Assembly: GCF_003852405.1 (NCBI RefSeq)
Contig: NZ_QAJM01000007.1
Span: forward strand, 186,001-250,000
DNA from: Pseudomonas sp. KBW05
GTDB lineage: Bacteria; Pseudomonadota; Gammaproteobacteria; Pseudomonadales; Pseudomonadaceae
Reading direction: 5' to 3'
DNA: 64,000 bases
Notes under the pieces: generated by a model
The model's input: only the letters and a program-made list of their open reading frames with translations
Database searches by the model: none
What the model was told of the DNA's origin: nothing
In this document: one piece after another, positions 12,287 through 36,939 of the stretch
Layout: the number at the start of each line of letters is the position of its first letter
How positions within the stretch are numbered: the first letter of the stretch is position 1
Program-made: the position numbers and the translations under genes

Positions 12287-12310
12287 GCGGGGAGGCATAA
12301 GCCTCCCCGC
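12287..12310 (+). terminator. Strong hairpin between glnE and waaF, probable terminator
   Basis: A perfect 10-bp stem (GCGGGGAGGC / GCCTCCCCGC) with loop ATAA is followed by ATCGTTTG, so the U-tract is short. It lies 18 nt before the waaF start, so it could also be a 5' UTR structure. Confidence 0.5.
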
Positions 12311-12328
12311 ATCGTTTGTGGAAACTAC

Positions 12329-13363
12329 ATGAATATTCTGATCGTTGGGCCCAGTTGGGTCGGTGACATGGTGATGGCGCAGACACTGTTCCAGTGCCTG
12401 AAACAACGTCATCCCGACTGCCAGATCGACGTGCTCGCCCCTGAGTGGAGCCGTCCGATCCTCGAACGCATGCCCGAAGTGCGCGCGGCCTTGAGCTTTC
12501 CGCTCGGCCACGGTGCCCTGGAGCTGGCGACCCGTCGGCGCATCGGCAAATCCCTGGCCGGCCAGTATGACCAGGCCATCCTGCTGCCCAACTCGCTGAA
12601 GTCGGCGCTGGTGCCGTATTTTGCCGGCATCCCCAAGCGCACTGGCTGGCGCGGCGAGTTCCGCTACGTGCTGCTCAATGACGTGCGCACGCTGGACAAG
12701 GCCCGTTACCCGCTGATGATCGAACGCTTCATGGCCCTGGCGTATGAGCCGGGGGCCGAGTTGCCCAAGCCGTATCCGCGCCCGAGCCTGCAGATCGACC
12801 CGGTGAGCCGCGATGCCGCCCTGGCCAAGTTCGGCCTGAGCCTGGATCGCCCGGTCCTGGCCCTGTGCCCTGGCGCCGAGTTTGGCGAGTCCAAGCGCTG
12901 GCCGTCGGAGCATTACGCCAAGGTCGCCGAGATGAAAATCCGCGAAGGCTGGCAGGTGTGGCTGTTTGGTTCGAAGAAGGATCACCCGGTGGGCGAAGAC
13001 ATTCGCCAGCGCCTGATCCCCGGCCTGCGCGAAGAGGCGGTGAACCTCAGTGGCGATACGTCGCTGGCCGAGGCCATCGACCTGTTGTCCTGCGCTGATT
13101 CGGTGGTGTCCAACGACTCTGGTCTGATGCACGTCGCGGCGGCGCTGAACCGCCCGTTGGTGGCGGTGTATGGCTCCACGTCGCCGGGTTTCACCCCGCC
13201 GCTGGCCGACAAGGTTGAAGTGGTGCGCCTGGGTCTGGATTGCAGCCCATGTTTTGATCGTACTTGCCGTTTCGGCCACTACAACTGCATGCGCCAGTTG
13301 CTGCCGCAGCCGGTCAACGAAGCCTTGCAGCGGTTGCAAGGCTCTGTGGTCGAGGTCCGATAG
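12329..13363 (+). CDS. waaF: ADP-heptose:LPS heptosyltransferase II
   Basis: A 344-residue GT9 enzyme that transfers the second L-glycero-D-manno-heptose to heptose I of the inner core at the inner face of the cytoplasmic membrane. It begins MNILIVGPSWVGDMVMAQTL, the family N-terminus, and contains the donor-site motifs PGAEFGESKRWP and SNDSGLMHVAAAL. The C-terminal Cys cluster (CSPCFDRTCRFGHYNC) is typical of WaaF. I start at the ATG at 12329 because the upstream in-frame codons are translated REP sequence. It is the first gene of a tightly packed core-oligosaccharide operon. Confidence 0.96.
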   Translation: MNILIVGPSWVGDMVMAQTLFQCLKQRHPDCQIDVLAPEWSRPILERMPEVRAALSFPLGHGALELATRRRIGKSLAGQYDQAILLPNSLKSALVPYFAGIPKRTGWRGEFRYVLLNDVRTLDKARYPLMIERFMALAYEPGAELPKPYPRPSLQIDPVSRDAALAKFGLSLDRPVLALCPGAEFGESKRWPSEHYAKVAEMKIREGWQVWLFGSKKDHPVGEDIRQRLIPGLREEAVNLSGDTSLAEAIDLLSCADSVVSNDSGLMHVAAALNRPLVAVYGSTSPGFTPPLADKVEVVRLGLDCSPCFDRTCRFGHYNCMRQLLPQPVNEALQRLQGSVVEVR

Positions 13364-13364
13364 T

Positions 13365-14426
13365 TTGCGCGTCCTGGTAATCAAGACCTCATCCCTGGGC
13401 GACGTGATCCACGCCTTGCCGGCACTCACTGATGCCGCGCGGGCGATCCCCGGCATTCAATTCGACTGGGTGGTAGAAGAAGGCTTCGCCGAGATTCCCA
13501 CCTGGCACCCGGCGGTCGACAAGGTGATCCCGGTGGCGATTCGCCGCTGGCGCAAAAACATCTGGCAGACCATCAAGAGTGGCGAGTGGCGGCGCTTCAA
13601 GCAGCGTGTCCAAGCGACCAAATATGACCTGGTAATCGACGCCCAAGGCCTGCTGAAAAGCGCCTGGCTGACTCGCTACGTGCGCGCGCCCGTGGCCGGG
13701 TTCGACAAAAACTCCGCCCGTGAGCCGATGGCCGCGCGCTTCTACTCCCGACGTCTGGCCGTGGCCCGTGGCCAACACGCGGTGGAGCGCCTGCGCCAAC
13801 TGTTTGCCGTGGCCCTCGGTTATGACCTGCCCAAGGGCCTGGGAGACTATGGCCTGAGCGTTGAAAAACTGCTTGGCCTGCCGCCGAAAAAGCCCTTCGT
13901 CCTGCTGCTGCACGGCACCACCTGGGACACCAAGCATTGGCCCGAAGCTTACTGGCGCGAGCTGGCCGAGCGCATGGGCCGCTTGGGTGTGGACGTGAAG
14001 CTGCCGTGGGGCAACGCCGCTGAAAAAGCCCGCGCCGACCGCCTGGCCCACGGCTTGACGAACGCCGAAGTGCTGCCCAAGCTGAACCTGGCCGGCGTCG
14101 CCCGCGTGCTGGCCGGCGCTCGCGCCTGTGTGGCGGTGGACACCGGCCTCGGTCACCTGGCCGCCGCGCTGGATGTGCCGACCATTTCCCTGTTCGGCCC
14201 CACCAACCCGGGCCTGACCGGCGCTTATGGCAAGGGCCAGATTCACCTGGGCAGCGACTTCCCCTGCGCGCCCTGCCTGCAAAAGCAATGTACCTATCAA
14301 CCGACGGCCGACGACCTGCGTCGGTTCGACCTCAAGCGCGAGTCGCCCCTGTGCTTCACGCGCCTGAACCCTGAGCGTGTGGCCAGCCGACTGAGCACGT
14401 TGTTATTGGCTGAGGAGCTGCACTGA
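13365..14426 (+). CDS. waaC: ADP-heptose:LPS heptosyltransferase I
   Basis: A 353-residue GT9 enzyme that adds the first heptose to Kdo2-lipid A. The start is a TTG at 13365, one base after the waaF stop, giving the conserved N-terminus LRVLVIKTSSLGDVIHALPA (read with Met). Donor-binding motifs follow: LHGTTWDTKHWPEAYW, VAVDTGLGHLAAAL and LFGPTNPGLTG. An ATG start would delete the nucleotide-binding N-terminus, which supports TTG. Translational coupling to waaF and to waaG (ATGA overlap at 14423-14428) is evident. Confidence 0.95.
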   Translation: MRVLVIKTSSLGDVIHALPALTDAARAIPGIQFDWVVEEGFAEIPTWHPAVDKVIPVAIRRWRKNIWQTIKSGEWRRFKQRVQATKYDLVIDAQGLLKSAWLTRYVRAPVAGFDKNSAREPMAARFYSRRLAVARGQHAVERLRQLFAVALGYDLPKGLGDYGLSVEKLLGLPPKKPFVLLLHGTTWDTKHWPEAYWRELAERMGRLGVDVKLPWGNAAEKARADRLAHGLTNAEVLPKLNLAGVARVLAGARACVAVDTGLGHLAAALDVPTISLFGPTNPGLTGAYGKGQIHLGSDFPCAPCLQKQCTYQPTADDLRRFDLKRESPLCFTRLNPERVASRLSTLLLAEELH

Positions 14427-15550
14427 TGCAACTGGCTTTCGTTTTGTACAAATACTTCCCCTTCGGTGGCTTGCAGCGCGACTTTATGCGCATCGCCCTG
14501 GAGTGCCAGCAGCGCGGCCATAAAATCCGCGTGTACACGCTGATCTGGGAAGGCGACATCCCGCCCGGCTTCGAAGTGCTGGTGGCGCCGGTCAAGGCGT
14601 TCTTCAACCATCGGCGCAACGAGAAACTCAGCGCCTGGATGGAAGCGGACCTGGCCAAGCGCCCGGTGGATCGCCTGATCGGCTTCAACAAAATGCCCGG
14701 CCTGGACGTGTACTACGCCGCCGACGGCTGCTTCGAAGACAAGGCACAAAACCTGCGCCATTCGCTGTACCGCTATTTTGGCCGCTACAAGCACTTCGCC
14801 GAGTACGAGCGTGCAGTGTTTGCCAAGGACGCCAAGACCGAAATCCTGATGATTTCCGAAGTGCAGCAGCCGCTGTTCATCAAACATTACGACACGCCGC
14901 TGGAACGCTTCCACCTGCTGCCGCCGGGCATTGCCCAGGACCGTCGTGCACCGCCGAATGCGGCTGAAATCCGCGAAGGCTTTCGCAAGGAATTCAACCT
15001 CGGTGACGACGACCTGCTGCTGGTGCAGATCGGTTCCGGCTTCAAGACCAAGGGCGTTGATCGCAGCCTCAAGGCTGTGGCCGCACTGCCGGCAGAGCTG
15101 AAAAAACGCACGCGCCTGTTTGTAATCGGCCAGGACGACCCCAAGGTATTCCAACTGCAAAGCGCCACGCTGGGGCTGGGGGACAACGTGCAGTTCCTCA
15201 AGGGCCGCAGCGACATCCCGCGCTTCCTGCTGGGCGCCGATCTGTTGATCCACCCGGCGTACAACGAAAACACCGGCACCGTATTGCTCGAAGCCCTGGT
15301 GGCCGGGCTGCCGGTGCTGGTCTCGGCGGTATGTGGTTATGCCCATTACATCGCCGAAGCCGATTGCGGCCTGGTGCTGGATGAGCCGTTCGAACAAGCA
15401 CAGCTCAACCGCTACCTGACGCAAATGATCAGCGACACTGCACAGCGCGCGGCCTGGGGCCGCAATGGGTTGGCCTTTGCCGAGACGGCCGACCTCTACA
15501 GCATGCCGCAGCACGCTGCGGATGTGATTCTGGCGGAGCCGAAACGATGA
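14426..15550 (+). CDS. waaG: UDP-glucose:(heptosyl)LPS glucosyltransferase WaaG
   Basis: A 374-residue GT-B, GT4-family transferase that adds the first hexose of the outer core to heptose II. The N-terminal acceptor domain begins MQLAFVLYKYFPFGGLQRDF, and the donor domain contains QIGSGFKTKGVDRSL and the GT4 retaining motif HPAYNENTGTVLLEALVAGLP (E-x7-E). The start overlaps the waaC stop. In Pseudomonas this enzyme probably adds an N-acetylgalactosamine-type residue rather than glucose, which I cannot decide from sequence. Confidence 0.94.
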   Translation: MQLAFVLYKYFPFGGLQRDFMRIALECQQRGHKIRVYTLIWEGDIPPGFEVLVAPVKAFFNHRRNEKLSAWMEADLAKRPVDRLIGFNKMPGLDVYYAADGCFEDKAQNLRHSLYRYFGRYKHFAEYERAVFAKDAKTEILMISEVQQPLFIKHYDTPLERFHLLPPGIAQDRRAPPNAAEIREGFRKEFNLGDDDLLLVQIGSGFKTKGVDRSLKAVAALPAELKKRTRLFVIGQDDPKVFQLQSATLGLGDNVQFLKGRSDIPRFLLGADLLIHPAYNENTGTVLLEALVAGLPVLVSAVCGYAHYIAEADCGLVLDEPFEQAQLNRYLTQMISDTAQRAAWGRNGLAFAETADLYSMPQHAADVILAEPKR

Positions 15551-16353
15551 AGTTGATTCTTGCCGAACCGTTCAAGACGTTGTGGGCCGGGCGTGACGCC
15601 TTTGCCGAAGTCGAGAAGCTGCAAGGCGAAGTATTCCGTGAGCTGGCGGCGCGGCGCACATTGCGCACCGTGGTTGAGGGCCGTCCGTATTTCGTGAAGA
15701 TCCACCGTGGCATCGGCTGGGGTGAGATCTTCAAGAACCTGATCACCGCCAAGCTGCCAGTGCTCGGCGCGGGCCTGGAGTGGGCGGCGATCCATCGCCT
15801 GCAAGCCCTCGGCGTGCCTACCATGACCGGCGTGGCGTTTGGCGAGAAGGGCAGCAATCCGGCGGACCAGCACTCGTTCATCATCACCGAAGAGCTGGCG
15901 CCCACCGTCAGCCTGGAAGACCTGACAGTCAACTGGGTGGCCGAACCGCCGGCACCGGCGCTGCGCCATGCGCTCACCGCCGAGCTGGCGCGCATGGTCG
16001 GCGATATGCACCGGGGCGGCGTGAACCATCGCGACTGCTACCTGTGCCACTTCCTGCTGGACACTGCAAAACCCATCGACGCAAAAGACATCAAGCTGTC
16101 GGTGATCGACCTGCACCGCGCCCAATTGCGTAACCACTTGCCGCTGCGCTGGCGCGACAAGGACTTGTCCGCGCTGTATTACTCGGCGCTGGAAATCGGC
16201 CTGACCCGGCGTGACAAGTTGCGCTTCCTCAAGGGCTACTTCCGCCAGCCGCTGCGCCAGATCCTCGCCGAGCAATCGGCGTCCCTGAGCCTGATGCAGC
16301 GCAAGGCCGACAAGCTCTACGCGCGCAAGCAACGTTACGGGGATGCGATCTGA
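15547..16353 (+). CDS. waaP: LPS core heptose(I) kinase WaaP
   Basis: A 268-residue protein-kinase-fold enzyme that phosphorylates heptose I, a modification important for outer-membrane integrity in Pseudomonas. Visible kinase elements are the lysine in PYFVKIHR (about residue 44), EWAAIHRL, and the catalytic loop NHRDCYLCHF with Asp and a terminal His in place of the usual Asn, as in the WaaP family. VIDLHRAQ carries the metal-binding Asp. It overlaps waaG by four bases and the next kinase gene by one. Confidence 0.95.
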   Translation: MKLILAEPFKTLWAGRDAFAEVEKLQGEVFRELAARRTLRTVVEGRPYFVKIHRGIGWGEIFKNLITAKLPVLGAGLEWAAIHRLQALGVPTMTGVAFGEKGSNPADQHSFIITEELAPTVSLEDLTVNWVAEPPAPALRHALTAELARMVGDMHRGGVNHRDCYLCHFLLDTAKPIDAKDIKLSVIDLHRAQLRNHLPLRWRDKDLSALYYSALEIGLTRRDKLRFLKGYFRQPLRQILAEQSASLSLMQRKADKLYARKQRYGDAI

Positions 16354-17087
16354 TGGCGGGTTGGAACCTGGAACCGGCCTACGCCAACCTGGCGGATGAT
16401 TTTGGCAGCCTTGAGGCGGTATTCGCCCTGCAAGGCGAGCAACTGACCCACGACCCGCTGTCGGAAGTGATCCGCGTCGAGCGCGGCGGGGTCAATTACT
16501 ACGTCAAGCGCTACACCGGTGCCGGCAAGGGCTTGCGCCGCTACCTGGGCAAGCCGCGGGTCAAGTCCGAATGGCAGAACCTCAAGCGCTTCGCCAAGTG
16601 GGGCATTCCCACCGCCGACGTGATCGCCTGGGGCCTGGAGCGCAACGGCCTGGCGTACGACCGGGGCGCGATGATCACCCGTGAGCTGCCGCGCACCGAA
16701 GACCTGTCGGTGCTCGCCGAGCGCGACGATGCACGCCTGCACGATCCGAAGTGGGTCGACGCGGTCAGCCGCCAGCTCGCCGAATACACGCGCACCATGC
16801 ACGATCACCGCTTCACCCATAACGACTTGAAGTGGCGCAACCTGCTGATCGACGACCAGCAGACCCTGTACCTGATCGATTGCCCGAACGGCGATTTCTG
16901 GCGCGGGTTCTGGCTCAAGTACCGCATCACCAAGGACCTGGCCTGTCTCGACAAGGTGGCCAAATATCACCTGTCGGCCACCCAGCGCCTGCGTTTCTAC
17001 ATGCAATACCGCCAGCGGCGTCACCTGAGCGCCTCGGACAAACGGCGGATTCGCCACGTGGTGAAGTTTTTTGAGGGGCGCGAATGA
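16353..17087 (+). CDS. InaA-family LPS kinase (WapP-like)
   Basis: A 244-residue kinase-fold protein of the lipopolysaccharide kinase (InaA/WaaP) family. The catalytic loop THNDLKWRNLLI has the Asp and Asn of an active kinase, and YLIDCPNGDF carries the DFG-like Asp. The lysine in VNYYVKRYTG matches the ATP-binding Lys. It overlaps waaP and the next gene (ATGA at 17084-17087). Its position after waaP matches the P. aeruginosa kinase proposed to phosphorylate heptose II (PA5008, called WapP as I recall); the substrate here is inferred. Confidence 0.85.
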   Translation: MAGWNLEPAYANLADDFGSLEAVFALQGEQLTHDPLSEVIRVERGGVNYYVKRYTGAGKGLRRYLGKPRVKSEWQNLKRFAKWGIPTADVIAWGLERNGLAYDRGAMITRELPRTEDLSVLAERDDARLHDPKWVDAVSRQLAEYTRTMHDHRFTHNDLKWRNLLIDDQQTLYLIDCPNGDFWRGFWLKYRITKDLACLDKVAKYHLSATQRLRFYMQYRQRRHLSASDKRRIRHVVKFFEGRE

Positions 17088-17836
17088 CTGACTTCCTGGC
17101 GGCTGAAGACCGTGCGCTGCTGGAGCGCCACGGCCTGGCCACATTCGATGCGCTGTGGGCCAAGCAGCTGGACGCGGTGGACGAACCAAACACCAGTCGC
17201 GGCGGCTGGAGCAGCGTGTTTCGCCTGGAGCTCGACGGCCATGGTTATTGCCTCAAGCGCCAGAGCAACTACCTGACGCGTAGCCTGCACCGACCGTTTG
17301 GCGAACCGAGTTTCTCCCGCGAATTCCGCAATATCAGCCGTTACCGCAAGCTCGGCATCCCGGCGTTGCAGGCCGCGTTCTACGGCGAGCGCAAGGTGGC
17401 TGGTGAGCATCGCGCGATGCTGCTGACCCGCGCGCTCGACGGCTGGAATGACCTGGATTCATTGCTCGACGAGTGGCCGCAACTGAGCGATGCCCAGCAC
17501 GCTGCGATCCTGCTGGCTTGCGGCCAACTGGCGCGTCGGTTGCACAGTGTCGGCCAGGTGCACGGCTGTTTTTATCCGAAGCATATTTTCCTGCAGGCCA
17601 CCGGCGACGGTTACGCCGCGCAGTTGATCGACCTGGAAAAAACCCGCCCGCTGCTGTTCGGCTGGCGTGATCGGGTCAAGGATTTGGAGCCGCTGTTGCG
17701 CCGCGCACCACAATGGTCTGATGCGCAGGTGCGCCAATTGTTGGCGGCGTACCTCGATCAACCCGAGGACAGTGCGCTGGTTGCCACGTGGTACCAGCGC
17801 CTGAGCGCCCGTCGTAGCCACAAGGAAAACCGTTGA
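17084..17836 (+). CDS. InaA-family kinase-like protein with altered catalytic loop
   Basis: A 250-residue kinase-fold protein of the InaA family in the LPS core operon. The ATP-lysine region GYCLKRQSNYL and the metal-binding LIDLEKTRP are present. The catalytic loop, however, reads HGCFYPKHIF: the Asp of HxD is replaced by Cys and the Asn position is His. It may be a divergent or non-catalytic kinase, or use another base; HGCFYPKH itself seems characteristic of an InaA subgroup, to my recollection. It is translationally coupled to both neighbours (4-nt and 1-nt overlaps). It corresponds in position to PA5007. Confidence 0.82.
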   Translation: MTDFLAAEDRALLERHGLATFDALWAKQLDAVDEPNTSRGGWSSVFRLELDGHGYCLKRQSNYLTRSLHRPFGEPSFSREFRNISRYRKLGIPALQAAFYGERKVAGEHRAMLLTRALDGWNDLDSLLDEWPQLSDAQHAAILLACGQLARRLHSVGQVHGCFYPKHIFLQATGDGYAAQLIDLEKTRPLLFGWRDRVKDLEPLLRRAPQWSDAQVRQLLAAYLDQPEDSALVATWYQRLSARRSHKENR

Positions 17837-19275
17837 TGCGTTTGTCCGAGCTGAAAACTGCCGGCCGTACCCCCGACTTGCCCCTGACCATTGAACTGGC
17901 TGACGCGGCCGGCCCGGGCCAGTTGCAACTGCTCAGCCTGTTGCGTGTGTTGCCGGGCGAGCGCTACGTGGGCGCGGCGGTATGGCGCGGGCGCCCGGTG
18001 CTGGCCAAGTTGTTGGTGGGCAGCAAGGCGGCGCGGCATTTTCAGCGTGAACTGAGCGGCGTGCGCCTGCTCGCCGAGCAAGGCCTGACCACGCCGCAGT
18101 TGCTGGCCGATGGCTTGCAGGACGGCGAGGGCGGCTGGCTGCTCTTTGAGTTCATCGACGGTGCTGAAAGCCTGGCGGATGCCTGGCAGACCGTCGAAAG
18201 TTTGCCGCCGCTGGCCGACGAACAAACCGCCGTACTCGCCGAAGCCCTGGGCGCGATTGCGCAGATGCACGCCAAGGGCCTGTGGCAGGAAGACCTGCAC
18301 CTGGACAACCTGCTGCGCCGGGACGGTAAGTTGTATTTGATCGACGGCGCGGGGATTCGCGTCGAAGAGGCGGGCAAGCCGCTGTCGCGCAATCGCGTGC
18401 TGGAAAACCTCGGGGTGTTTTTTGCCCAGTTGCCGAAAAACCTCGCGCCGTTTACCGAAGAGTTGCTGGTGTACTACCTGCTGAGCAACGGCGAACATGC
18501 CTTGCCGCTGGAGGCCCTGGAAAAACAGGTGCGCAAAGTCAGTGCGTGGCGGTTGAAGGACTTCTTGAGCAAGGTTGGCCGCGAGTGCACGCTGTTCAGC
18601 GTGTTGCGCGGGCCGTTTGCCTTGCGAGCGTTCCGTCGCGAAGAAGAGACTGCGATGCTGCCGGTCTTGGAGCGGGCCGATGCTTTGCTCGACCAGGGCC
18701 ATCTGTTCAAGACTGGCGGCGCGGCCACCGTGGCCAAGGTCGACGTGGCGGGCCGCCCGTTGGTGATCAAGCGCTACAACATCAAGGGCTTTGCCCATTG
18801 GCTCAAACGCTTCTGGCGTCCGAGCCGGGCCTGGCACTCCTGGCGCGAAGGCAATCGCCTGGCATTCCTTGGCATCGCCACACCCAAGCCGCTGGCGGTG
18901 CTGGAAAAGCGTTTTTTCTGGCTGCGCAGCCGGGCTTACCTGATCACCGAGCACCTGGCTGGGCCGGACATCATCGAACGTTTTGCGCCTTACGTTGAGC
19001 AGGGCGACGCGCCGGAAAACGAACTGCTGGCCCTCGACAACCTGTTCGCCGAGCTGATCCGCGAGCGCATCAGCCATGGCGATTTCAAGGGGCACAACCT
19101 GTTTTGGGACAAGGACCGCTGGTCGCTGATCGACCTGGACGCCATGCGCCAACACAGCAGCGACGCCAGCTTCGCTCCGGCGTATGCCAAGGACCGTGCT
19201 CGGTTTATGCGGAACTGGGCGCAGGACTCGGCGTTGTACAAGCTGATTGATCAGCGGTTGCCCAAGCAGGTCTGA
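17836..19275 (+). CDS. Tandem double-kinase InaA/LPS-kinase protein
   Basis: A 479-residue protein that appears to hold two kinase-like domains. In domain 1 (about 1-200) the Lys is in VLAKLL (58), the catalytic loop QEDLHLDNLL has Asp153 and Asn158, and LIDGAG contains Asp170. In domain 2 (about 285-470) the Lys is in VIKRYN (312), the loop SHGDFKGHNLF has Asp416 and Asn421, and LIDLDAM has Asp433. Both sets of catalytic residues look intact. The ATG at 17836 overlaps the previous stop; a TTG three bases earlier is less likely. It is last in the first LPS block and positionally equivalent to PA5006. The acceptor is unknown, with core heptose the likely target. Confidence 0.82.
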   Translation: MRLSELKTAGRTPDLPLTIELADAAGPGQLQLLSLLRVLPGERYVGAAVWRGRPVLAKLLVGSKAARHFQRELSGVRLLAEQGLTTPQLLADGLQDGEGGWLLFEFIDGAESLADAWQTVESLPPLADEQTAVLAEALGAIAQMHAKGLWQEDLHLDNLLRRDGKLYLIDGAGIRVEEAGKPLSRNRVLENLGVFFAQLPKNLAPFTEELLVYYLLSNGEHALPLEALEKQVRKVSAWRLKDFLSKVGRECTLFSVLRGPFALRAFRREEETAMLPVLERADALLDQGHLFKTGGAATVAKVDVAGRPLVIKRYNIKGFAHWLKRFWRPSRAWHSWREGNRLAFLGIATPKPLAVLEKRFFWLRSRAYLITEHLAGPDIIERFAPYVEQGDAPENELLALDNLFAELIRERISHGDFKGHNLFWDKDRWSLIDLDAMRQHSSDASFAPAYAKDRARFMRNWAQDSALYKLIDQRLPKQV

Positions 19276-22204: not shown

Positions 22205-23962
22205 GTGGCATTGACGATTCTTGGCCTGTCCGGCGCCCTTAGCCATGATCCTTCCGCAGCCTTGTATATCGACGGCAAGCTGATCGCGGCCGCCGAAGAA
22301 GAGCGTTTCGTGCGCGACAAACATGCAAAGAACCGCATGCCCTACGAATCGGCGAAGTTCTGCCTGGAGCAAGCCGGCATCAAGCCTTCCGACGTTGACG
22401 TAGTGGCGATCCCGTTCGCCCCGATCAGCCTGTTCGGCGAGGCGCGCTGGCACTACGCCAAGCGTTACTGGTACGCCCCGGACCGCGCCCTTGACGCGAT
22501 CCTGATGGGCAACCGTCGCTACAAACGCTATCGCAACAAGATCGTCTGGTGCCTGGAGCAACTGGGCTTCGATCCGAAGAAAATCAAGATCGAACCGGTT
22601 GAGCACCACCTGGCCCACGCTTCCAGTGCCTACCACTGCTCCGGCTTCCAGGAGAAAACCGCGATTCTCGGCATCGACGGTAAAGGTGAGTACGCCACCA
22701 CGTTCTTCGGCTACGGCGAGAACGGCAAGATCCACAAGATCAAAGAATTCTACGACCCAGACTCCCTCGGCGGCCTGTACGGCGCGATCACCGAGTTCCT
22801 CGGTTTCGAGATGCTCGACGGTGAGTTCAAGGTGATGGGCATGGCGCCGTACGGCGACGCCAGCAAATACGACTTCTCGCGCCTGGCCTCTTTTGAAAAT
22901 GGCGAGCTGGTGATCAACACCGACTACGCCAACGTCATCGGCCTGCGTCGCTACAAAGAGAAGGGCAAGGGGTTCTACTTCTCGCCAAAACTGATCGAGT
23001 GGCTGGGTCCCAAGCGCGAAGGCGACATCGCCGACGAGCCGTACATCCACTACGCGGCCAGCATGCAGGCGCTGTTCGAGAAGCTGGCCTTGCAGATGAT
23101 CGACCACTACCTGGGCGACATCCTCAAGGACACCGGCAAGCTGGCCTTCGCCGGCGGTTGCGCGCTGAACGTGAAGCTGAACCAGAAGATCATTGCCCGC
23201 GACGACGTCAAGGAACTGTTTGTGCAGCCGGCGTCCGGCGATGCCGGCACCGCCGTTGGCGCGGCGGCCTACGTGTCCCACGCCCGTGGTGTACCGGTAG
23301 AGAAGATGGAACACGTCTACCTCGGCCCGTCCTACAGCAACGAAGACGTGATTGCCGCGTGCGCCAAGCACGAGAGCAAGCCGGTATGGCGCAAGATCGA
23401 GAACATGCCTAAACGCATCGCCAAGATCATGGTCGACGGCAACCCGGTGGCCTGGTTCCAGGGCCGCATGGAGTTTGGCCCGCGTGCCTTGGGCGGTCGT
23501 TCGATCATCGGTTGCCCAAGCGCCACCGGCGTGGCTGACCGCATCAACCACCAGATCAAGTTCCGCGAACGCTGGAGGCCTTTCTGCCCGTCGATGCTCG
23601 ACACCGTGGCCCCGCAGATGATCAAGGTCGATCACCCGGCGCCGTTCATGACCTTCACCTTTGAAGTGTCGGAAGAGTGGAAGACCCGCGTGCCGGAAGT
23701 GGTCCATGAAGATGGCACCTCCCGCGCCCAGGTGCTCAAGCGCGAGTACAACCCGCGCTACTACGACATGATGAAAGAGCTGGAAGTGCTGACCGGCAAC
23801 GGCGTGTCCCTGAACACCTCGCTCAACCGTCGTGGCGAAGCGATGATCTGCTCGCCGAAAGACGCGCTGGACATGTTCTTCGGTTCGGACCTGCAATACC
23901 TGATCATGGAAGACATCCTGGTGGTCAAGGACGGCGTGGACCCTTATGACACGCTCGGCTGA
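22205..23962 (+). CDS. LPS core carbamoyltransferase (NodU/CmcH family, WapO-like)
   Basis: A 585-residue enzyme that uses carbamoyl phosphate and ATP to carbamoylate a sugar hydroxyl. The N-terminal Kae1-like domain shows LGLSGALSHDPSAAL, EEHHLAHASSAY-type HHLAH and GIDGKGEYATT. The C-terminal YrdC-like part includes GRMEFGPRALGGRSI and INHQIKFRERWRPFCPS, hallmarks of the family. The start is GTG at 22205 with AGAGG upstream. In P. aeruginosa the homologue (PA5005, WapO as I recall) adds the 7-O-carbamoyl group of heptose II; the same role here is inferred from position. Confidence 0.9.
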   Translation: MALTILGLSGALSHDPSAALYIDGKLIAAAEEERFVRDKHAKNRMPYESAKFCLEQAGIKPSDVDVVAIPFAPISLFGEARWHYAKRYWYAPDRALDAILMGNRRYKRYRNKIVWCLEQLGFDPKKIKIEPVEHHLAHASSAYHCSGFQEKTAILGIDGKGEYATTFFGYGENGKIHKIKEFYDPDSLGGLYGAITEFLGFEMLDGEFKVMGMAPYGDASKYDFSRLASFENGELVINTDYANVIGLRRYKEKGKGFYFSPKLIEWLGPKREGDIADEPYIHYAASMQALFEKLALQMIDHYLGDILKDTGKLAFAGGCALNVKLNQKIIARDDVKELFVQPASGDAGTAVGAAAYVSHARGVPVEKMEHVYLGPSYSNEDVIAACAKHESKPVWRKIENMPKRIAKIMVDGNPVAWFQGRMEFGPRALGGRSIIGCPSATGVADRINHQIKFRERWRPFCPSMLDTVAPQMIKVDHPAPFMTFTFEVSEEWKTRVPEVVHEDGTSRAQVLKREYNPRYYDMMKELEVLTGNGVSLNTSLNRRGEAMICSPKDALDMFFGSDLQYLIMEDILVVKDGVDPYDTLG

Positions 23963-25076
23963 TCGCCACGTCCTGCAGTTCTGCCACGGCTATGACGGGC
24001 CGTTCCTCGATTGTGCCCGTCAGTACGCCAGCCTGTTCGCAGGCTCTGGCTACAAGGTGACCACCGTGTTTCTCACCGGGGTCGCCGACCCTGAAGTCGC
24101 GGCCGGTTGCGCCTCCGATGAAGTGTTGTTCATGGAATTCAGCTCCAAGGCCATTCGTGGCCTCAAGCTGGGCGCCATCGCCGAGATGCGCAAGATTGCC
24201 GCCTCGCGCAATTTCAGCTTCTGCATCGCGCACCGCGCCAAGCCGATCTACGTCGCCTTGCTCGCCACGCGCTTGCAGGTGATTGGTGTGCACCACGCGT
24301 TTGGCGATTACCAGCGCCGTGGCCGCCGCCTGTTTGCGTCGATTTTCCGTAAGCGCTTGAGTCTGGTGGGGGTGTCCGACGCTGTGCGTGACGACATCCG
24401 CCGTTGCCTGCCGAGTTGGCCGGCGGCGCGTATCCAGACTTTGTACAACCGCATTGATGTCGAGGCCATGCAGGCCCTGCAAGTCTCGAAGGATGACGCG
24501 CGGGATGCCCTCGGGTTGTCGCCGGATGAATGGGTGGTCGGCAACGTCGGCCGCCTGCACCCGGACAAGGACCAGGCCACGCTGCTCAAGGGCTTCGCCC
24601 TGGCCTTGCCACAGTTGCCCGGCGAAAGCCGCCTGGCGATTCTCGGTACCGGCCGCCTGGAGCAGGACCTCAAGGAACTGGCCCGCGAGCTGGGGATTGC
24701 CGACAAGGTGCGGTTCCTCGGCCAGGTGCCGGATGCGCGCCGCTATTTCCGTGCATTTGACGTGTTTGCCCTGAGCTCCGACCACGAACCGTTCGGCATG
24801 GTGCTGCTGGAAGCCATGGCCGCTGGCGTACCGTTGCTGGCCACGGCCTGCGGTGGTGCCAAGGAAGTGGTCGAAGGCGTGGGCATCCTGTTTCCTTTCG
24901 GCGATGCCGAGCACCTGGCCCAAGGCCTGGGGCACCTGGCTGCGATGGATCAACAGCAGCAACGCCAGTGCGCCGAGATGATGCTGGAGCGCCTGCACGC
25001 GCGGTTCTCGGACCAGGCGGTGCGCGATGCTTTCTGGCAACTGCCACACGTTATTGAACTGACCGCGAGGGCTTGA
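23946..25076 (+). CDS. GT4 glycosyltransferase of the LPS core (WapH-like)
   Basis: A 376-residue GT-B transferase. The N-terminal half begins FCHGYDGPFLDCARQYASLF. The C-terminal donor domain has GNVGRLHPDKDQATLLKGF, LAILGTGRLEQDLKELA and the retaining motif SSDHEPFGMVLLEAMAAGVP. It overlaps the carbamoyltransferase gene by 17 nt, so they are translationally coupled. Its place matches PA5004, proposed to add an outer-core glucose; the linkage is not readable from sequence. Confidence 0.87.
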   Translation: MTRSADRHVLQFCHGYDGPFLDCARQYASLFAGSGYKVTTVFLTGVADPEVAAGCASDEVLFMEFSSKAIRGLKLGAIAEMRKIAASRNFSFCIAHRAKPIYVALLATRLQVIGVHHAFGDYQRRGRRLFASIFRKRLSLVGVSDAVRDDIRRCLPSWPAARIQTLYNRIDVEAMQALQVSKDDARDALGLSPDEWVVGNVGRLHPDKDQATLLKGFALALPQLPGESRLAILGTGRLEQDLKELARELGIADKVRFLGQVPDARRYFRAFDVFALSSDHEPFGMVLLEAMAAGVPLLATACGGAKEVVEGVGILFPFGDAEHLAQGLGHLAAMDQQQQRQCAEMMLERLHARFSDQAVRDAFWQLPHVIELTARA

Positions 25077-30958: not shown

Positions 30959-32137
30959 ATGCAAGCAAGTCGTTGGGCGCGAGGGTGGATGTGTTTCGGG
31001 TTGCTGTGGTTTTTGCTGGGGATCGCCTTCGCGCCGACCAATAAGATCTATCAACAAGGGCTGACACTGTTTCTATGGCTGCCGGCCATGGTGTTTGCCT
31101 GGTCTGCCCGTGAACAGCTCAAGCACGTCTGGCGCACTCAGCGCTGGACGATCGTAGCGCTTGGGCTGCTGGCGGCCTGGGGCTTGATCAGCCTGTTCTG
31201 GACCAATGCCCAGGACGGCTCCCGTGAAGCCAAGCGTCTGCTCTATATCGGTGTGTTCCTGCTGTTCTTCCCGGTACTTGCCCAAGGCCAGACCCAGCAG
31301 GTGATTCGCCTGATGCAGTGGGGTGGCTTTGGTCTGGCCTTGTCGTCGCTGCTGGCGATGATCAAGTTCTATGGCCTTGAAGGCAACGTCTGGCACGCCC
31401 GCATTGAGGGCCTGGGGCAGCTGTCGCACCCGATCCTCGGCGCGTACGTCATTGGCTTGGCGGCCGTGTGGATGTTGCATTGGGTGCCGCGTGGCCGCTG
31501 GACGCAGGTGGCTTGCCTGGTGGCAGTCGCTTTGCTCGGCCTGTTTGTGGTGGCGAGCCAGAGCCGTGGTGCCGTGCTGGCCTTGCTGCTGAGCGTGGTG
31601 GCAATGCCGCTGTGGTGCCGCGACCGACGCAGCAGCGTGATTGCCATCGCGGCGACGTTGGCGGCAATCGTGGTGTTTGTGTCCCTGCAGTCGTTGATGC
31701 TGTCCCGCGGCGCGTCCTTCCGCCCGCAGATTTTCATGGCTGCGATGCAGATGATCAGCGAGCGCCCCTGGACCGGCCTGGGCCTGGGCGGTGATTACTT
31801 CCTGCAATGGGAAGATCACCGCTTTGACCATTCCCATAACCTGTTCACCCACGTGGCCATCGAGCTCGGCCTGCCGGGTCTGCTCCTGTGGTGCGCGGTG
31901 TGGCTCGGTGTGCTGTGGCAAGCCTGGAAGGTGCGCGACACCCGGTACGGCAAAGGCATCATCGGCATGTGGGTGTTTTCCACGCTGGCGATGCAATTCG
32001 ATGCGGCAAGCCTCACCGGTACGCCTCGGGCCGAATGGTTCATCACCTGGCTGCCGGTGGCGCTGGCCAGTGTTTTGGTCTGGGCTCGGGCCAAACCCGA
32101 TGCTTGTGATAAAGTTGCCGCCCTACCTAATCAGTGA
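30959..32137 (+). CDS. waaL: O-antigen ligase WaaL
   Basis: A 392-residue polytopic inner-membrane protein with about 10-12 hydrophobic segments that transfers polymerised O-antigen from undecaprenyl pyrophosphate to lipid A-core at the periplasmic face. The large periplasmic loop shows FRPQIFMAAMQMISERPWTGLG and the O-antigen-ligase signature HSHNLFTHVAIELGLPG with the essential His. The ATG at 30959 has AGGAG five bases upstream. It is divergent from the kinase-like gene at 30246 and is followed within 9 nt by msbA. Confidence 0.93.
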   Translation: MQASRWARGWMCFGLLWFLLGIAFAPTNKIYQQGLTLFLWLPAMVFAWSAREQLKHVWRTQRWTIVALGLLAAWGLISLFWTNAQDGSREAKRLLYIGVFLLFFPVLAQGQTQQVIRLMQWGGFGLALSSLLAMIKFYGLEGNVWHARIEGLGQLSHPILGAYVIGLAAVWMLHWVPRGRWTQVACLVAVALLGLFVVASQSRGAVLALLLSVVAMPLWCRDRRSSVIAIAATLAAIVVFVSLQSLMLSRGASFRPQIFMAAMQMISERPWTGLGLGGDYFLQWEDHRFDHSHNLFTHVAIELGLPGLLLWCAVWLGVLWQAWKVRDTRYGKGIIGMWVFSTLAMQFDAASLTGTPRAEWFITWLPVALASVLVWARAKPDACDKVAALPNQ

Positions 32138-32145
32138 GCTCGACA

Positions 32146-33954
32146 ATGAGTGACGCACCGCCCAAAGCGGAACAGGAATCCAGCCTGAAAATCTATTTCA
32201 GGCTGCTGGGCTATGTGAAACCCTACATCGGCATGTTCCTGGTGAGCATCGTCGGTTTCGTGATTTTCGCGTCCACCCAGCCGATGCTGGCCGGGATCCT
32301 CAAATACTTTGTTGACGGCTTGAGCAACCCGGACGTGGTGTTTTTCCCCAACGTGCCGTACCTCAAGGACCTGAAACTGCTGATGGCCGTGCCGCTGCTG
32401 ATCGTCCTGATCGCTGCGTGGCAGGGCCTCGGCTCGTTCCTGGGCAACTACTACCTGGCCAAGGTATCCCTGGGCCTGGTCCACGACCTGCGGGTGCAGT
32501 TGTTCAATAAACTGCTGGTATTGCCTAACCGTTATTTCGATACCCACAGTTCCGGGCACCTGATCTCGCGCATCACCTTTAACGTGACCATGGTCACTGG
32601 CGCTGCCACGGATGCGATCAAGGTCGTGATCCGCGAAGGCCTGACGGTGGTGTTCCTGTTCGGCTACCTCCTGTGGATGAACTGGAAGCTGACCCTGGTG
32701 ATGCTGGCGATCCTGCCGATCATCGCCACGATGGTCGGCAGCACCAGCAAGAAATTTCGCAAGCAGAGCAAGAAAATCCAGGTGGCGATGGGTGATGTGA
32801 CCCATGTGGCCTCGGAGACGATCCAGGGCTACCGCGTGGTGCGCAGCTTCGGTGGGGAAACCTACGAAGAGCAGCGCTTTGCCAAGGCGAGCATGAGCAA
32901 CACCGAAAAGCAGATGCGCATGACCAAGACCGGCGCGGTCTACACGCCCATGCTGCAACTGGTGATCTACACCGCAATGGCGGCGCTGATGTTCCTGGTG
33001 CTGTTCCTGCGGGGCGATGCGACAGCCGGCGACCTGGTGGCCTACATCACCGCGGCGGGCCTGCTGCCCAAGCCGATCCGCCAATTGTCGGAAGTCAGTT
33101 CGACCATCCAGAAGGGCGTCGCGGGTGCCGAAAGCATCTTTGAGCAATTGGATGTCGAGCCTGAAGTGGACACCGGCACCGTCGAGAAAGAACGGGTCAG
33201 CGGCCGTCTGGACGTGCGCAACCTGAGCTTCACCTACCCCGGCACCGAGCGCGAAGTACTGAAGAACATCAGCTTCACCGCCGCGCCAGGCCAGATGGTC
33301 GCGCTGGTCGGGCGTTCGGGCAGTGGCAAGTCCACGCTCGCCGCGCTGATCCCGCGCTTCTATCACCACGAGACCGGCGAGATCCTCCTCGACGAAGTGG
33401 AAATCGAAGACTACCGCCTGCGCAACCTGCGCCGCCACGTGGCCCAGGTGACCCAGCACGTGACGCTGTTCAACGACACCGTGGCCAACAACATTGCCTA
33501 CGGCGACCTGGCTGGCGCGCCGCGTGAAGACGTCGAGAAAGCGGCGCGGGATGCCTACGCCATGGACTTCATCGCCGAGCTGCCCAAGGGCCTCGACACC
33601 GAAGTCGGTGAAAACGGCGTGCTGCTCTCCGGTGGCCAGCGCCAGCGTTTGGCGATTGCCCGCGCGCTGCTGAAAAACGCGCCGCTGCTGATCCTCGATG
33701 AAGCCACTTCGGCGCTGGATACCGAGTCCGAACGGCATATCCAGGCCGCGCTGGACAAGGTCATGAAGGGTCGCACCACCTTGGTGATTGCGCACCGTCT
33801 GTCTACCATCGAGAAAGCCGACCTGATTCTGGTCATGGATCACGGCGAAATTGTCGAGCGTGGTACACACCTTGAGCTGCTGGCGATGGGGGGCTACTAC
33901 TCCCGCCTGCACGCCATGGGGCTGGACGAGCCGGCAACGGCCAACATCACCTGA
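32146..33954 (+). CDS. msbA: Lipid A export ATP-binding/permease MsbA
   Basis: A 602-residue homodimeric ABC exporter that flips lipid A-core across the inner membrane. The six-helix transmembrane domain (about 20-330) starts FRLLGYVKPYIGMF. The nucleotide-binding domain has Walker A GRSGSGKST, the signature LSGGQRQRLAIARAL, Walker B LLILDEATSALD and the switch His in IAHRLSTIE. The ATG at 32146 follows the waaL stop by eight bases; the in-frame GTG at 32134 overlaps that stop and is less likely. Transcription ends at the hairpin at 33961-33985. Confidence 0.97.
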   Translation: MSDAPPKAEQESSLKIYFRLLGYVKPYIGMFLVSIVGFVIFASTQPMLAGILKYFVDGLSNPDVVFFPNVPYLKDLKLLMAVPLLIVLIAAWQGLGSFLGNYYLAKVSLGLVHDLRVQLFNKLLVLPNRYFDTHSSGHLISRITFNVTMVTGAATDAIKVVIREGLTVVFLFGYLLWMNWKLTLVMLAILPIIATMVGSTSKKFRKQSKKIQVAMGDVTHVASETIQGYRVVRSFGGETYEEQRFAKASMSNTEKQMRMTKTGAVYTPMLQLVIYTAMAALMFLVLFLRGDATAGDLVAYITAAGLLPKPIRQLSEVSSTIQKGVAGAESIFEQLDVEPEVDTGTVEKERVSGRLDVRNLSFTYPGTEREVLKNISFTAAPGQMVALVGRSGSGKSTLAALIPRFYHHETGEILLDEVEIEDYRLRNLRRHVAQVTQHVTLFNDTVANNIAYGDLAGAPREDVEKAARDAYAMDFIAELPKGLDTEVGENGVLLSGGQRQRLAIARALLKNAPLLILDEATSALDTESERHIQAALDKVMKGRTTLVIAHRLSTIEKADLILVMDHGEIVERGTHLELLAMGGYYSRLHAMGLDEPATANIT

Positions 33955-33960
33955 CAAGAC

Positions 33961-33985
33961 GGGGCGCGCAATGCGCCCCGTTTTT
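33961..33985 (+). terminator. Rho-independent terminator after msbA
   Basis: A 7-bp GC stem (GGGGCGC / GCGCCCC) with a 5-nt loop is followed by G and five T residues, starting six bases after the msbA stop. Confidence 0.92.
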
Positions 33986-34105
33986 GTATCAAGCCCCTTA
34001 CAGGCTTGACCAAAGCCAAATAATTCGCCGCCTATCGTTTGTTATGTTGGCCTTCTCGATTCGAATGACGAACGAGAGGGTTAACCTTCTTGCGTGGGTA
34101 ATGGA

Positions 34106-34810
34106 ATGTTGCAACGTCTGTTCTGGAAACTGCTGCCCAAACAGCAGAGGGCTTTTTTGTTAGGGCGTTTGTCGGTGGTGGATCGGCAGGCGGTCAACAA
34201 GTCCATGTCGGCATTGACCGTCCTTCCGCCCGCTTTTGTAAAACATGCCTGTGTGTTCATCCACGTGCCCAAGTGCGCGGGCAGCAGTGTCTGCTCGGTA
34301 CTGCTGGATGGGCGCTGGCCGGGGCATTTGCCGTACCACTGGTATGAGCAGCAATTCCCCGCGCATTGCGCCGACAGTTTCAAGTTTGCCTTCGTGCGTG
34401 ACCCGCTGGAACGTGCCTACTCGGCGTACACCTATCTGCGCGGCAACAGCATGGGCAGCCGGGATCGGGAGGCCCAGGCGTTGGTGGGCAGCTACCGCGA
34501 CTTTGATCACTTCGTCGCCGGCTGGCTGCACCCGGACAACCTGCGCCGGCAACTGCACTTTGCCCCGCAGACCGACTTCCTGGTGGATCACCTGGGGCGC
34601 ATGTCCATGGATTTTCTTGGACGCCAGGAGCACCTGCAGCGGGATTTTCGCAGTGTCTGCGAACGCCTTGGACTGAACGCGGCCTTGCCTCATCTCAACG
34701 TTTCCCTTGGGCGCCGCAGCGAACCCGTCCGGGACTTTTGCTCCTTGCGTACGCGCCGTTTGGTCAGGCGTGCCTATCAGCGCGACTACGAGGTCTTGGG
34801 TTATGAATAA
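34106..34810 (+). CDS. PAPS-dependent sulfotransferase
   Basis: A 234-residue protein of the carbohydrate sulfotransferase type. The 5'-phosphosulfate-binding loop is FIHVPKCAGSSV (about 51-62), with Lys and Ser contacting the sulfate donor. The 3'-phosphate motif is FAFVRDPLERAYSAY (about 95-109), with the conserved Arg and Ser. I start at ATG 34106 (MLQRLFWKLL); an in-frame GTG at 34094 is possible. The gene overlaps cysC by 8 nt, so the PAPS producer and consumer are co-translated. Its place between msbA and hldE, which I recall as adjacent in P. aeruginosa, marks it as accessory. The acceptor is unknown, with an LPS core or O-antigen sugar most likely. Confidence 0.85.
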   Translation: MLQRLFWKLLPKQQRAFLLGRLSVVDRQAVNKSMSALTVLPPAFVKHACVFIHVPKCAGSSVCSVLLDGRWPGHLPYHWYEQQFPAHCADSFKFAFVRDPLERAYSAYTYLRGNSMGSRDREAQALVGSYRDFDHFVAGWLHPDNLRRQLHFAPQTDFLVDHLGRMSMDFLGRQEHLQRDFRSVCERLGLNAALPHLNVSLGRRSEPVRDFCSLRTRRLVRRAYQRDYEVLGYE

Positions 34811-35411
34811 CTCGTCGCTTTCCTGCAGCGTCGCCGACGTGCGCCCCTTCGCCCTGTCGCTGACGGTGGCCGCCCGCGCCGCGCTCAAGCACCAGCAACC
34901 TTGTTGTCTGTGGCTGACGGGGTTGTCCGGGTCGGGCAAGTCGACCCTGGCCAATGCGCTGGAAGTGCAGCTCAACGAGCAGGGCCGGCACACCTTCGTG
35001 CTTGATGGCGACAACGTGCGCGCCGGGTTGTGCAGCGACCTGGGCATGGGCGTGGTGGCGCGCAAGGAGAACATCCGGCGCATTGGCGAAGTGGCGCGGT
35101 TGATGGTGGATGCGGGGCTGATCGTGATCGTATCGGCGATCTCGCCGTTCAGTGCCGACCGCGAGACGGCGCGGGCACTGTTCGGGCCGGGGCAGTTTTT
35201 TGAGGTGTATGTCAGTACGCCGCTGGCGATCTGTGTGCGCCGCGATCCCAAGGGCCTGTACCGGGCGGCGCTGGACGGGCGCATCAAGGACTTCACCGGG
35301 CTGGACAGCCCCTATGAAGCCCCCCGGCAGGCCGACTGCGAAATCAACACCGACGAGGTCGAATTGGCCGAAGCCGTGGAGCACGTCCTGGCGGTTTTGT
35401 TTAAAAAGTGA
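34803..35411 (+). CDS. cysC: Adenylyl-sulfate (APS) kinase
   Basis: A 202-residue stand-alone APS kinase that makes PAPS from adenylyl sulfate and ATP. The P-loop GLSGSGKST lies at about 40-48, followed by VLDGDNVRAGL, RIGEVARLMVDAGLIV and ISPFSADRETAR, all family hallmarks. The ATG at 34803 lies inside the end of the sulfotransferase gene. Pseudomonas usually has APS kinase fused to CysN for assimilation, so a separate copy next to a sulfotransferase points to dedicated PAPS supply for sulfation rather than cysteine synthesis; that is inference. Confidence 0.93.
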   Translation: MNNSSLSCSVADVRPFALSLTVAARAALKHQQPCCLWLTGLSGSGKSTLANALEVQLNEQGRHTFVLDGDNVRAGLCSDLGMGVVARKENIRRIGEVARLMVDAGLIVIVSAISPFSADRETARALFGPGQFFEVYVSTPLAICVRRDPKGLYRAALDGRIKDFTGLDSPYEAPRQADCEINTDEVELAEAVEHVLAVLFKK

Positions 35412-35514: not shown

Positions 35515-36939
35515 ATGAAGTTGTCCATGCCGCGATTCGATCAAGCCCCTGTCTTGGTGGTCGGCGATGTCATGCTCGACCGTTACTGGCATGGTGGTAC
35601 CTCACGGATTTCCCCTGAGGCGCCGGTACCGGTAGTCAAGGTCGAGCAAATCGAAGACCGTCCAGGCGGGGCTGCCAACGTTGCCCTCAATATTGCCGCA
35701 CTCGGCGCCCCGGCCTCCCTGGTGGGTGTGACCGGCGACGACGAAGCCGCCGACAGCCTGGCCAATAGCCTGCGCGGTGCCGGCGTGCGTGCGCAGTTCC
35801 AGCGCATCGCCCATCAGCCGACCATCGTCAAGCTGCGGGTCATGAGCCGTCACCAGCAATTGCTGCGCATCGATTTTGAAGAACCCTTCGCCACCGACGC
35901 CCTAGCCCTCAGCGGTCAGGTCGATGAGCTGCTCGAAGGCATCAAGGTGCTGGTGCTGTCCGACTACGGCAAAGGCGCGTTGAAGAACCATCAGGCGCTG
36001 ATCCAGGCTGCCAAGGCCAAAGGCATTCCGGTGCTGGCCGATCCCAAGGGCAAGGACTTCTCGATTTATCGCGGTGCCAGCCTGATCACGCCGAACCTCA
36101 GCGAGTTCGAAGCCATCGTCGGCGGCTGTGCCGATGAACACGAACTGGTGAGCAAAGGCGCGGCGCTGATGGCCGACCTCGACCTCGGCGCCTTGCTGGT
36201 GACCCGTGGCGAACACGGCATGACCCTGTTGCGCCCGGATCATCCGGCGATGCACCTGCCGGCCCGTGCCCGTGAAGTGTTCGACGTCACTGGCGCCGGT
36301 GACACGGTGATTTCCACCCTGGCCGCCTCGATTGCGGCCGGCGAGGAACTGCCCCACGCCGTGGCCCTGGCCAACCTGGCCGCGGGCATCGTGGTGGGCA
36401 AGTTGGGTACCGCTGCCATCAGCGCGCCGGAACTGCGCCGCGCGATCCAGCGTTCCGAAGGCTCGGAGCGCGGGGTGCTGGGGATCGAGCAATTGCTGTT
36501 GGCAATTGACGATGCCCGTGCCCACAACGAAAGCATTGTGTTCACCAACGGCTGCTTCGACATCCTGCATGCCGGCCACGTGACGTACCTGGAACAGGCG
36601 CGCGCCCAAGGCGATCGCCTGATCGTGGCGGTCAACGACGACGCCTCGGTCAGCCGCCTGAAAGGCCCTGGCCGTCCGATCAACAGCGTTGACCGGCGCA
36701 TGGCTGTATTGGCCGGTCTGGGCGCAGTGGACTGGGTGATCAGCTTCGCCGAAGGCACCCCGGAAAACCTGCTGGCCCAGGTCAAGCCCGACGTGCTGGT
36801 CAAGGGCGGGGACTATTCCGTCGACCAGGTGGTGGGGGCCGACATCGTCAGCGCCTACGGCGGCACAGTCAAAGTGTTGGGGCTGGTTGAAAACAGCTCG
36901 ACCACGGCCATCGTCGAGAAGATCCGCAACAATGAGTAA
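35515..36939 (+). CDS. hldE: Bifunctional heptose 7-phosphate kinase/heptose 1-phosphate adenylyltransferase
   Basis: A 474-residue fusion enzyme of ADP-heptose synthesis, which supplies waaC and waaF. The N-terminal ribokinase-like kinase (about 1-318) begins VLVVGDVMLDRYWHG and contains DRPGGAANVA and the active-site FDVTGAGDTVIS. The C-terminal cytidylyltransferase-like domain (about 340-474) has FTNGCFDILHAGHVTYLEQA, then VNDDASVSRLKG and VKGGDY. The ATG at 35515 gives the family N-terminus; an upstream ATG at 35497 adds only six unconserved residues. It overlaps the next gene by 8 nt. Confidence 0.97.
   Translation: MKLSMPRFDQAPVLVVGDVMLDRYWHGGTSRISPEAPVPVVKVEQIEDRPGGAANVALNIAALGAPASLVGVTGDDEAADSLANSLRGAGVRAQFQRIAHQPTIVKLRVMSRHQQLLRIDFEEPFATDALALSGQVDELLEGIKVLVLSDYGKGALKNHQALIQAAKAKGIPVLADPKGKDFSIYRGASLITPNLSEFEAIVGGCADEHELVSKGAALMADLDLGALLVTRGEHGMTLLRPDHPAMHLPARAREVFDVTGAGDTVISTLAASIAAGEELPHAVALANLAAGIVVGKLGTAAISAPELRRAIQRSEGSERGVLGIEQLLLAIDDARAHNESIVFTNGCFDILHAGHVTYLEQARAQGDRLIVAVNDDASVSRLKGPGRPINSVDRRMAVLAGLGAVDWVISFAEGTPENLLAQVKPDVLVKGGDYSVDQVVGADIVSAYGGTVKVLGLVENSSTTAIVEKIRNNE

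Follow-up and report, generated by a model that had tools for sequence, protein, structure and literature searches.

What do a sulfotransferase and an adenosine 5'-phosphosulfate (APS) kinase do in the middle of a locus that builds the core of lipopolysaccharide (LPS)? The question is raised by Pseudomonas sp. KBW05, whose genome (G000; 6.5 Mb in 69 contigs) includes a stretch of 64,000 nucleotides, contig NZ_QAJM01000007.1, positions 186,001 to 250,000, which we call the window and which holds the entire LPS core locus. Between msbA, the gene for the lipid A-core flippase, and hldE, this locus carries two overlapping genes, one for a sulfotransferase (ST) of the type that uses 3'-phosphoadenosine 5'-phosphosulfate (PAPS) and the other for a kinase of the type that makes this donor. 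The pair is a conserved, optional module. We think it fairly probable, from comparison of gene content across genomes, that it places an optional sulfate on a conserved part of the Pseudomonas-type core before export by MsbA.

A sulfotransferase and an APS kinase in one translational unit

A preliminary description of this DNA had read the two genes as a PAPS-using sulfotransferase and a stand-alone APS kinase overlapping between msbA and hldE, and both the frames, which share 8 bases (ATGAATAA), and the family matches bear this out. The ST matches PF03567 (Sulfotransfer_2) with 61.8 bits against a cut-off of 22; a Pfam scan at E up to 0.001 gave this family alone, which places the protein outside the Stf0 family, and no NCBIfam model matched it. 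The two motifs quoted for PAPS binding were found, HVPKCAGSS at residues 53-61 and FVRDPLERAYSAY at residues 96-108, which we take to be the 5'-phosphosulfate loop with its lysine and the 3'-phosphate motif (R...S), respectively, and K56, R98 and S106 are invariant across all 49 sequences of alignment A3. Residues 1-35 form an N-terminal module specific to the subfamily. The structure model of the ST (pLDDT 89.9, pTM 0.86) has a sulfotransferase fold, since its best structural matches are sulfotransferases. Sequence searches of solved structures returned no relative at E up to 1 with alignment A1 and, with alignment A3 at E up to 10, a single exonuclease at chance level (E 0.88). From family, fold and motifs together we infer a PAPS-dependent activity.

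The kinase matches PF01583 with 209 bits (cut-off 21.1) and TIGR00455 (apsK) with 236.1 bits (cut-off 138.7). It contains the P-loop GLSGSGKST and the motif LDGDNVR, within the VLDGDNVR cited in the preliminary description, and it is not fused to a sulfurylase. Both genes are under purifying selection: the median dN/dS against relatives is 0.106 for the ST, from the 17 of 80 pairs that were usable (dS under 1.2), and 0.221 for the kinase, from 64 of 75 pairs. An origin of the frames by chance or through a frameshift artefact was considered and is ruled out by the family scores, the conservation and the dN/dS values. A membrane-binding N-terminus was considered as well, and is not claimed because none of the segments 2-9, 12-22 and 24-35 has a helical moment beyond that of shuffled sequences, of which fractions of 0.08, 0.93 and 0.79, respectively, score as high. 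The nearest named ST, from Pseudomonas sp. CBZ-4, is 97% identical, and G000 itself contains no second PF03567 match and no PF00685 match.

Distribution within the genus

The distribution of the pair was described in a sample of 200 same-genus genomes, own included, and in named relatives, for which the best 80 of 123 found were kept. The two sets overlap, so that their counts are not additive, and because near relatives are not independent the counts describe a distribution and are not tests. An ST match was present in 40 of the 200 genomes: 30 were full-length at 67-100% identity, four were at 52-53%, two at 44%, two in pieces and two weak (26-27%). All 30 strong matches sit between MsbA and HldE, 27 of them with the kinase and three without it. 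Among the 80 named relatives, 70 have the ST at the msbA-hldE junction, five of these without the kinase, and 75 carry the kinase beside the ST. The co-occurrence of the two genes with the core locus, proposed earlier as a check, was therefore found in most carriers, while in ten of the 80 the pair lies elsewhere.

The gap between msbA and hldE was surveyed in 124 same-genus genomes having both positions, taken best scores first and thus biased to near relatives. The preliminary description had taken P. aeruginosa to have no extra gene at this junction. In the survey the gap is shorter than 400 bp in 86 genomes (median 142.5), measures 1.56-1.66 kb in 24 genomes with the pair and 1.72 kb in one more, 1.05-1.11 kb in the three with the ST alone and 0.75-0.87 kb in five with the kinase alone; five genomes have other contents (G043, G087 with an ST fragment, G092, G105 and G168). 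Mobile elements yielded no close relative: 16 of 72,556 plasmid records match distantly, ten of them listed at 33-38% identity, and one of 50,697 phages matches, at 23%.

Two junctions differ in ways of their own. In the 728 bp gap of G168 (C1 544250-544979) neither ST nor linked APS kinase was found. In L079 (6414-8745) and L081 (6083-8417) the junction is rearranged, with two genes that in other loci come earlier in the core cluster standing between msbA and the APS kinase; they are annotated as Mig-14 and PIG-L type in L079, and the same clusters occur in L081.

Co-inheritance and probable loss

The claim that producer and user of PAPS are joined in one translational unit is well supported by families, motifs and fold, and also by the overlap and the inheritance of the two genes. 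The kinase start codon lies in frame at the same overlap site in 63 of the 75 named pairs. Five changes are required for the ST-only state on the ST tree (84 rows), and well supported branches make at least three of these unavoidable. The kinases of pairs form a group of their own on the kinase tree (54 rows), inside which seven kinase-only rows fall alongside P. citri, P. brassicacearum and P. corrugata; nested among pairs in this way, they look like cases of later ST loss. The simplest reading of both trees would be an ancestral pair followed by loss of either gene. In L069 and L070, which sit at the junction without a linked kinase and are 40-44% identical to the window ST, the P-loop lysine and the second-motif serine have gone, as a loss of PAPS use would predict; within alignment A5 (15 rows) this loss is limited to these two, and the intact ST-only copy L024 keeps both residues. 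These two homologues (L069 8102-8812, from G161; L070 8162-8869, from G146) appear either decayed or re-purposed.

One could suppose instead that the kinase serves sulfur metabolism or a general supply of PAPS and adjoins the ST by chance. At least seven genomes, seven of them read directly, have the kinase alone at the junction, and all seven possess a PF00685 sulfotransferase elsewhere, as do 39 of the 153 genomes that lack both genes and 20 of the 40 that have an ST (7/7 versus 39/153, Fisher p = 1e-4 with kinship ignored). Pseudomonads, however, use APS reductase to assimilate sulfate, a route that does not require PAPS, and another APS kinase is present in G000 as part of a 635-aa CysNC-like frame. 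Since, moreover, the pair kinases group apart, their overlap is conserved and the lone kinases are nested among them, we give the supposition of chance adjacency hardly any credence.

The PF00685 sulfotransferase (about 280-300 aa) has matches in 66 of the 200 same-genus genomes. Several of these lie about 8-10 kb from another APS kinase, at 40-44% identity (examples are G036 C1 198494/207375, G055 C13 26323/35186, G135 C38, G162 C55, G158 C14, G139 C1 4796028/4804134 and G101 C17), and this sulfotransferase with the other APS kinase is probably a separate sulfation cluster.

Core loci outside the genus

In a search of the class, 63 of 369 genomes, own included, match the ST at E up to 1e-8, most of them distantly. 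In the samples searched, the N-terminal module was found beyond Pseudomonas and Azoarcus in only two genomes, G201 and G610, which belong to another family; in the order of G201, an ST with the module occurs in 2 of 63 genomes, again these two. The ST of G201 is the nearest outside relative, with 34% identity, and lies in a core run of waaF (TIGR02195, 456 bits), a gene of 521 aa, a WaaP-type kinase gene, the ST, a GT4 glycosyltransferase gene and a carbamoyltransferase gene. The GT4 product is 47% identical to that of the window gene at 23946, and the carbamoyltransferases of G201 and G610 are 70% identical to that at 22205. In G610 the ST stands directly before the carbamoyltransferase gene of a core locus. 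With the window, G201 and G610, the subfamily is a core-locus gene in more than one lineage. The 521-aa gene (L206 9226-10791), between waaF and the WaaP-type kinase gene, has no Pfam or NCBIfam match.

In a sample of the phylum (378 genomes), 11 genomes match at E up to 1e-25, own included, and in nine of the other ten the match stops short of the N-terminal module. G921 was considered as a further member of the subfamily, its match covering residues 5-234 with two stops; a frame of 229 aa is open there, its N-terminus differs by eye, and the candidate was rejected. Several of the distant ST relatives lie among glycosyltransferase, ligase or flippase genes.

The window carbamoyltransferase has a counterpart at 84-94% identity in all ten named genomes whose pair is outside the junction, both Azoarcus (Zoogloeaceae) included; in three genomes with distant STs the corresponding results are 38%, none and none. 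Both Azoarcus carriers possess a Pseudomonas-type core locus, with an MsbA at 78%, which looks like the transfer of a whole core type. These loci are L245 and L247, of genomes G983 and G984 (Azoarcus indigens and a relative), and their carbamoyltransferase is at 84%; provided that contig C6 and the contig of L156 are the same, some 33 kb would separate this core locus from the ST-kinase pair in G983.

A second combination of sulfotransferase and kinase was found within the genus itself, in G027 (L074). Its core locus (6096-12360 on L074) encodes a PF03567 protein of 224 aa (7867-8541; 73.3 bits), one of the weak matches of the ST search, which is 24% identical to the window ST and lacks the N-terminal module. 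The order is waaC, waaG, waaP, three kinase genes, a carbamoyltransferase gene (91% identical to the window's), directly behind it the sulfotransferase gene, then a weakly Wzy_C-like, ligase-like gene, a glycosyltransferase gene, an APS kinase gene (62%; 11626-12360), a further kinase gene, MsbA and HldE. The APS kinase thus lies about 3 kb from the distant sulfotransferase; the kinase of L073 (G165) is about 10 kb from one. Recurrent sulfation of the core, or sulfation linked to it, would lead one to expect such a core locus, with an APS kinase and a sulfotransferase that is no orthologue of the window ST.

The acceptor

In the pathway that we favour, the kinase would turn APS into PAPS next to the ST, and the ST, presumably cytoplasmic, would transfer sulfate from it onto a hydroxyl group in the conserved portion, inner or first outer, of the carbamoylated Pseudomonas-type core. 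This would take place while lipid A-core is being assembled at the cytoplasmic face of the inner membrane, after which MsbA, encoded just upstream of the pair, would export the sulfated product. The genes common to the window, Azoarcus, G201 and G610, namely those for the waaG-type GT4, the InaA-like kinase, the carbamoyltransferase and the GT4 of the 23946 type, point to a putative sulfate site in the heptose region or on the sugars that come directly after it. The LPS core acceptor proposed in the preliminary description thereby gains from the core-locus STs of G201 and G610, from the combination in G027 and from the core type of Azoarcus; the argument from location is weakened.

Several observations weigh against core sulfation. 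The ST is absent from 160 of the 200 same-genus genomes, so that the modification would be dispensable. Its linked kinase is missing in 3 of the 30 strong matches and 5 of the 80 named relatives, and the kinase in turn stands alone at the junction in the genomes described above. Over 47 kb around the G201 ST, no APS kinase was found among open reading frames of at least 80 aa, and the ST of G610 is broken into two frames. The association between core type and ST in the Azoarcus group was read from ST carriers alone. The pair is away from msbA and hldE in the ten named relatives and in three more same-genus genomes (G066, G085 and G155), and the annotated neighbours of outside pairs do not point to LPS (examples are a mechanosensitive channel, DAHP synthase with BrkB, a GGDEF-EAL protein, an aldehyde dehydrogenase and transporters). 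The positional argument is weakened accordingly, and taken by itself it gives the core acceptor little support.

These outside pairs also speak for a target that is not LPS but a lipid, a soluble metabolite or some other glycan. The junction would then be a place where the module is tolerated, which it entered on one or a few occasions and in which it was passed on thereafter. The outside state needs three changes on the ST tree, the outside rows branch near its base, and small-molecule sulfotransferases are among the best structural matches of the ST model, with Z within 1 of the top. The STs in the core loci of G201 and G610, the G027 combination and the core locus of Azoarcus would then be coincidences, however, and the position of several distant relatives among glycosyltransferase, ligase or flippase genes would not fit either; we consider such a target unlikely.

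The preliminary description had also named the O-antigen as a possible acceptor. A ligase-like gene lies two genes upstream of the ST, some distant relatives stand beside Wzy_C, Wzx or initiating transferase genes, and sulfated O-polysaccharides are known from marine bacteria. The ligase-like neighbour of the sulfotransferase in G027 may leave room for an O-antigen acceptor in that genome. At the junction, however, the ST occurs with at least two ligase or outer-core locus types (WaaL is on the same strand in 30 loci, divergent and on the opposite strand in 32, and otherwise arranged in 8), which makes the O-antigen, or a strain-specific outer-core sugar, less likely. O-antigen genes vary between strains, unlike the named junction STs, which are at least 65% identical to the window's, and we regard an acceptor of this kind as quite improbable.

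Locus layout and control signals

The features of the locus are collected in Table 1; the waa names in it that lack a curated match are presumptive, assigned from position. Upstream of the pair the core locus also holds Mig-14 and PIG-L genes and further glycosyltransferase genes, and the GT4 gene, whose orthologue adjoins the ST in G201, shares 47-55% identity with genes of the core loci in G201 and G610. Behind hldE comes a sugar epimerase-like gene (36935-37858), which is present in near relatives and not in most other junction loci examined.

Table 1. Features of the LPS core locus around the ST-kinase pair (window positions)
Feature	Position	Strand	Basis and remarks
Inner-core block	12173..19275	+	GT9 heptosyltransferase (waaF position) at 12173, waaC at 13170, GT4 (waaG position) at 14426, waaP at 15547, three more kinase genes
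LPS-core type carbamoyltransferase	22205..23962	+	PF02543 and PF16861; the ST subfamily has orthologues of it nearby or in the same genome elsewhere
GT4 glycosyltransferase of the core locus	23946..25076	+	Orthologue of the gene adjoining the ST in G201
O-antigen ligase-like gene, waaL position	30965..32137	+	PF04932 (Wzy_C), 63.9 bits
msbA, lipid A-core flippase (upstream flank)	32134..33954	+	TIGR02203, 841 bits, above cut-off
Intrinsic terminator after msbA	33955..33987	+	Folding energy and alignment of relatives
Conserved leader, presumed promoter region of the pair	33988..34105	+	Conserved blocks, window and 12 aligned relatives
PAPS-type sulfotransferase (ST), 234 aa	34106..34810	+	PF03567; ATG 34106, stop 34808-34810
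Stand-alone APS kinase (CysC-like), 202 aa	34803..35411	+	TIGR00455, PF01583; ATG 34803, stop ends at 35411
hldE (downstream flank)	35515..36939	+	PRK11316, 772 bits, above cut-off

A strong terminator at the end of msbA had been predicted from the letters, and folding agrees: the span 33953-33992 has a minimum free energy of -23.4 kcal/mol (z -5.97), equalled by none of 200 shuffles, and a perfect stem of at least 7 pairs is present at the site in 11 of the 13 aligned sequences (the window and 12 relatives), the exceptions being L092 and L102. A promoter and terminator scan did not list this terminator, despite the folding result. With so strong a terminator behind msbA, the pair is probably transcribed from a promoter of its own, which the leader before 34106 probably holds; the promoter scan of the leader gave a single weak sigma-70-like match (9/12), near the chance number.

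Comparison with known sulfation systems

The preliminary description had named LPS sulfation as known in rhizobia and not established for the Pseudomonas core. PMC12445080 and PMC6192434 describe rhizobial sulfated LPS made with PAPS as donor, and searches of open-licence papers found no report of sulfate in the Pseudomonas LPS core. LpsS of Sinorhizobium meliloti is, like the putative role of the window ST, a sulfotransferase assigned to LPS with PAPS as donor; it belongs to the Stf0 family (PMC12445080, Table 1), in contrast to the PF03567 family of the window ST, whose LPS acceptor is proposed here from gene context. PAPS supply in Mesorhizobium loti is attributed to nodPQ in the relevant part of PMC6192434, whereas in the window an overlapping kinase gene is at hand. 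LPS sulfation itself is thus already known; its catalysis by a PF03567 enzyme with its kinase at the Pseudomonas core locus would be new.

The window ST shares its Pfam family, its fold and both PAPS-binding motifs with heparan sulfate 2-O-sulfotransferase and other Sulfotransfer_2 proteins, but it is bacterial, has its own N-terminal module and is only 21% identical to heparan sulfate 2-O-sulfotransferase over 173 residues. As outlined in part of PMC11641403, the sulfated capsule cluster of Vibrio sp. KMM 8419 comprises 80 genes, including cysC, cysN, cysD and sulfotransferase genes, and the co-location of PAPS-synthesis and sulfotransferase genes is called there a hallmark of sulfated polysaccharides. 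Both loci combine such genes in a surface-polysaccharide region, but in the window it is the kinase-ST pair alone, at an LPS-core locus, and not an 80-gene capsule cluster with cysN and cysD. In Xanthomonas, the passage on RaxST, RaxP and RaxQ in PMC3655273 suggests that PAPS supply genes serve one sulfotransferase, a linkage similar to that of the pair, although RaxST sulfates tyrosine in a secreted peptide.

Significance

The core of Pseudomonas serves as a model of LPS assembly, and phosphate and carboxylate are regarded as the source of its negative charge. We lean slightly towards the broader view that a portable module, making and using PAPS and unrecognised before, would sulfate the conserved carbamoylated core in roughly 15-20% of the sampled species of the genus and in other bacteria with the Pseudomonas-type core, with a pattern of gain and loss like that of surface variation. 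If this is true, an optional sulfate module would be a new way to tune the charge of the outer membrane and the identity of receptors, and its gain and loss might act, for example, against phages, tailocins or cationic peptides, or on plant recognition. The ST would then also be a soluble enzyme of bacterial origin with which a defined core oligosaccharide could be sulfated.
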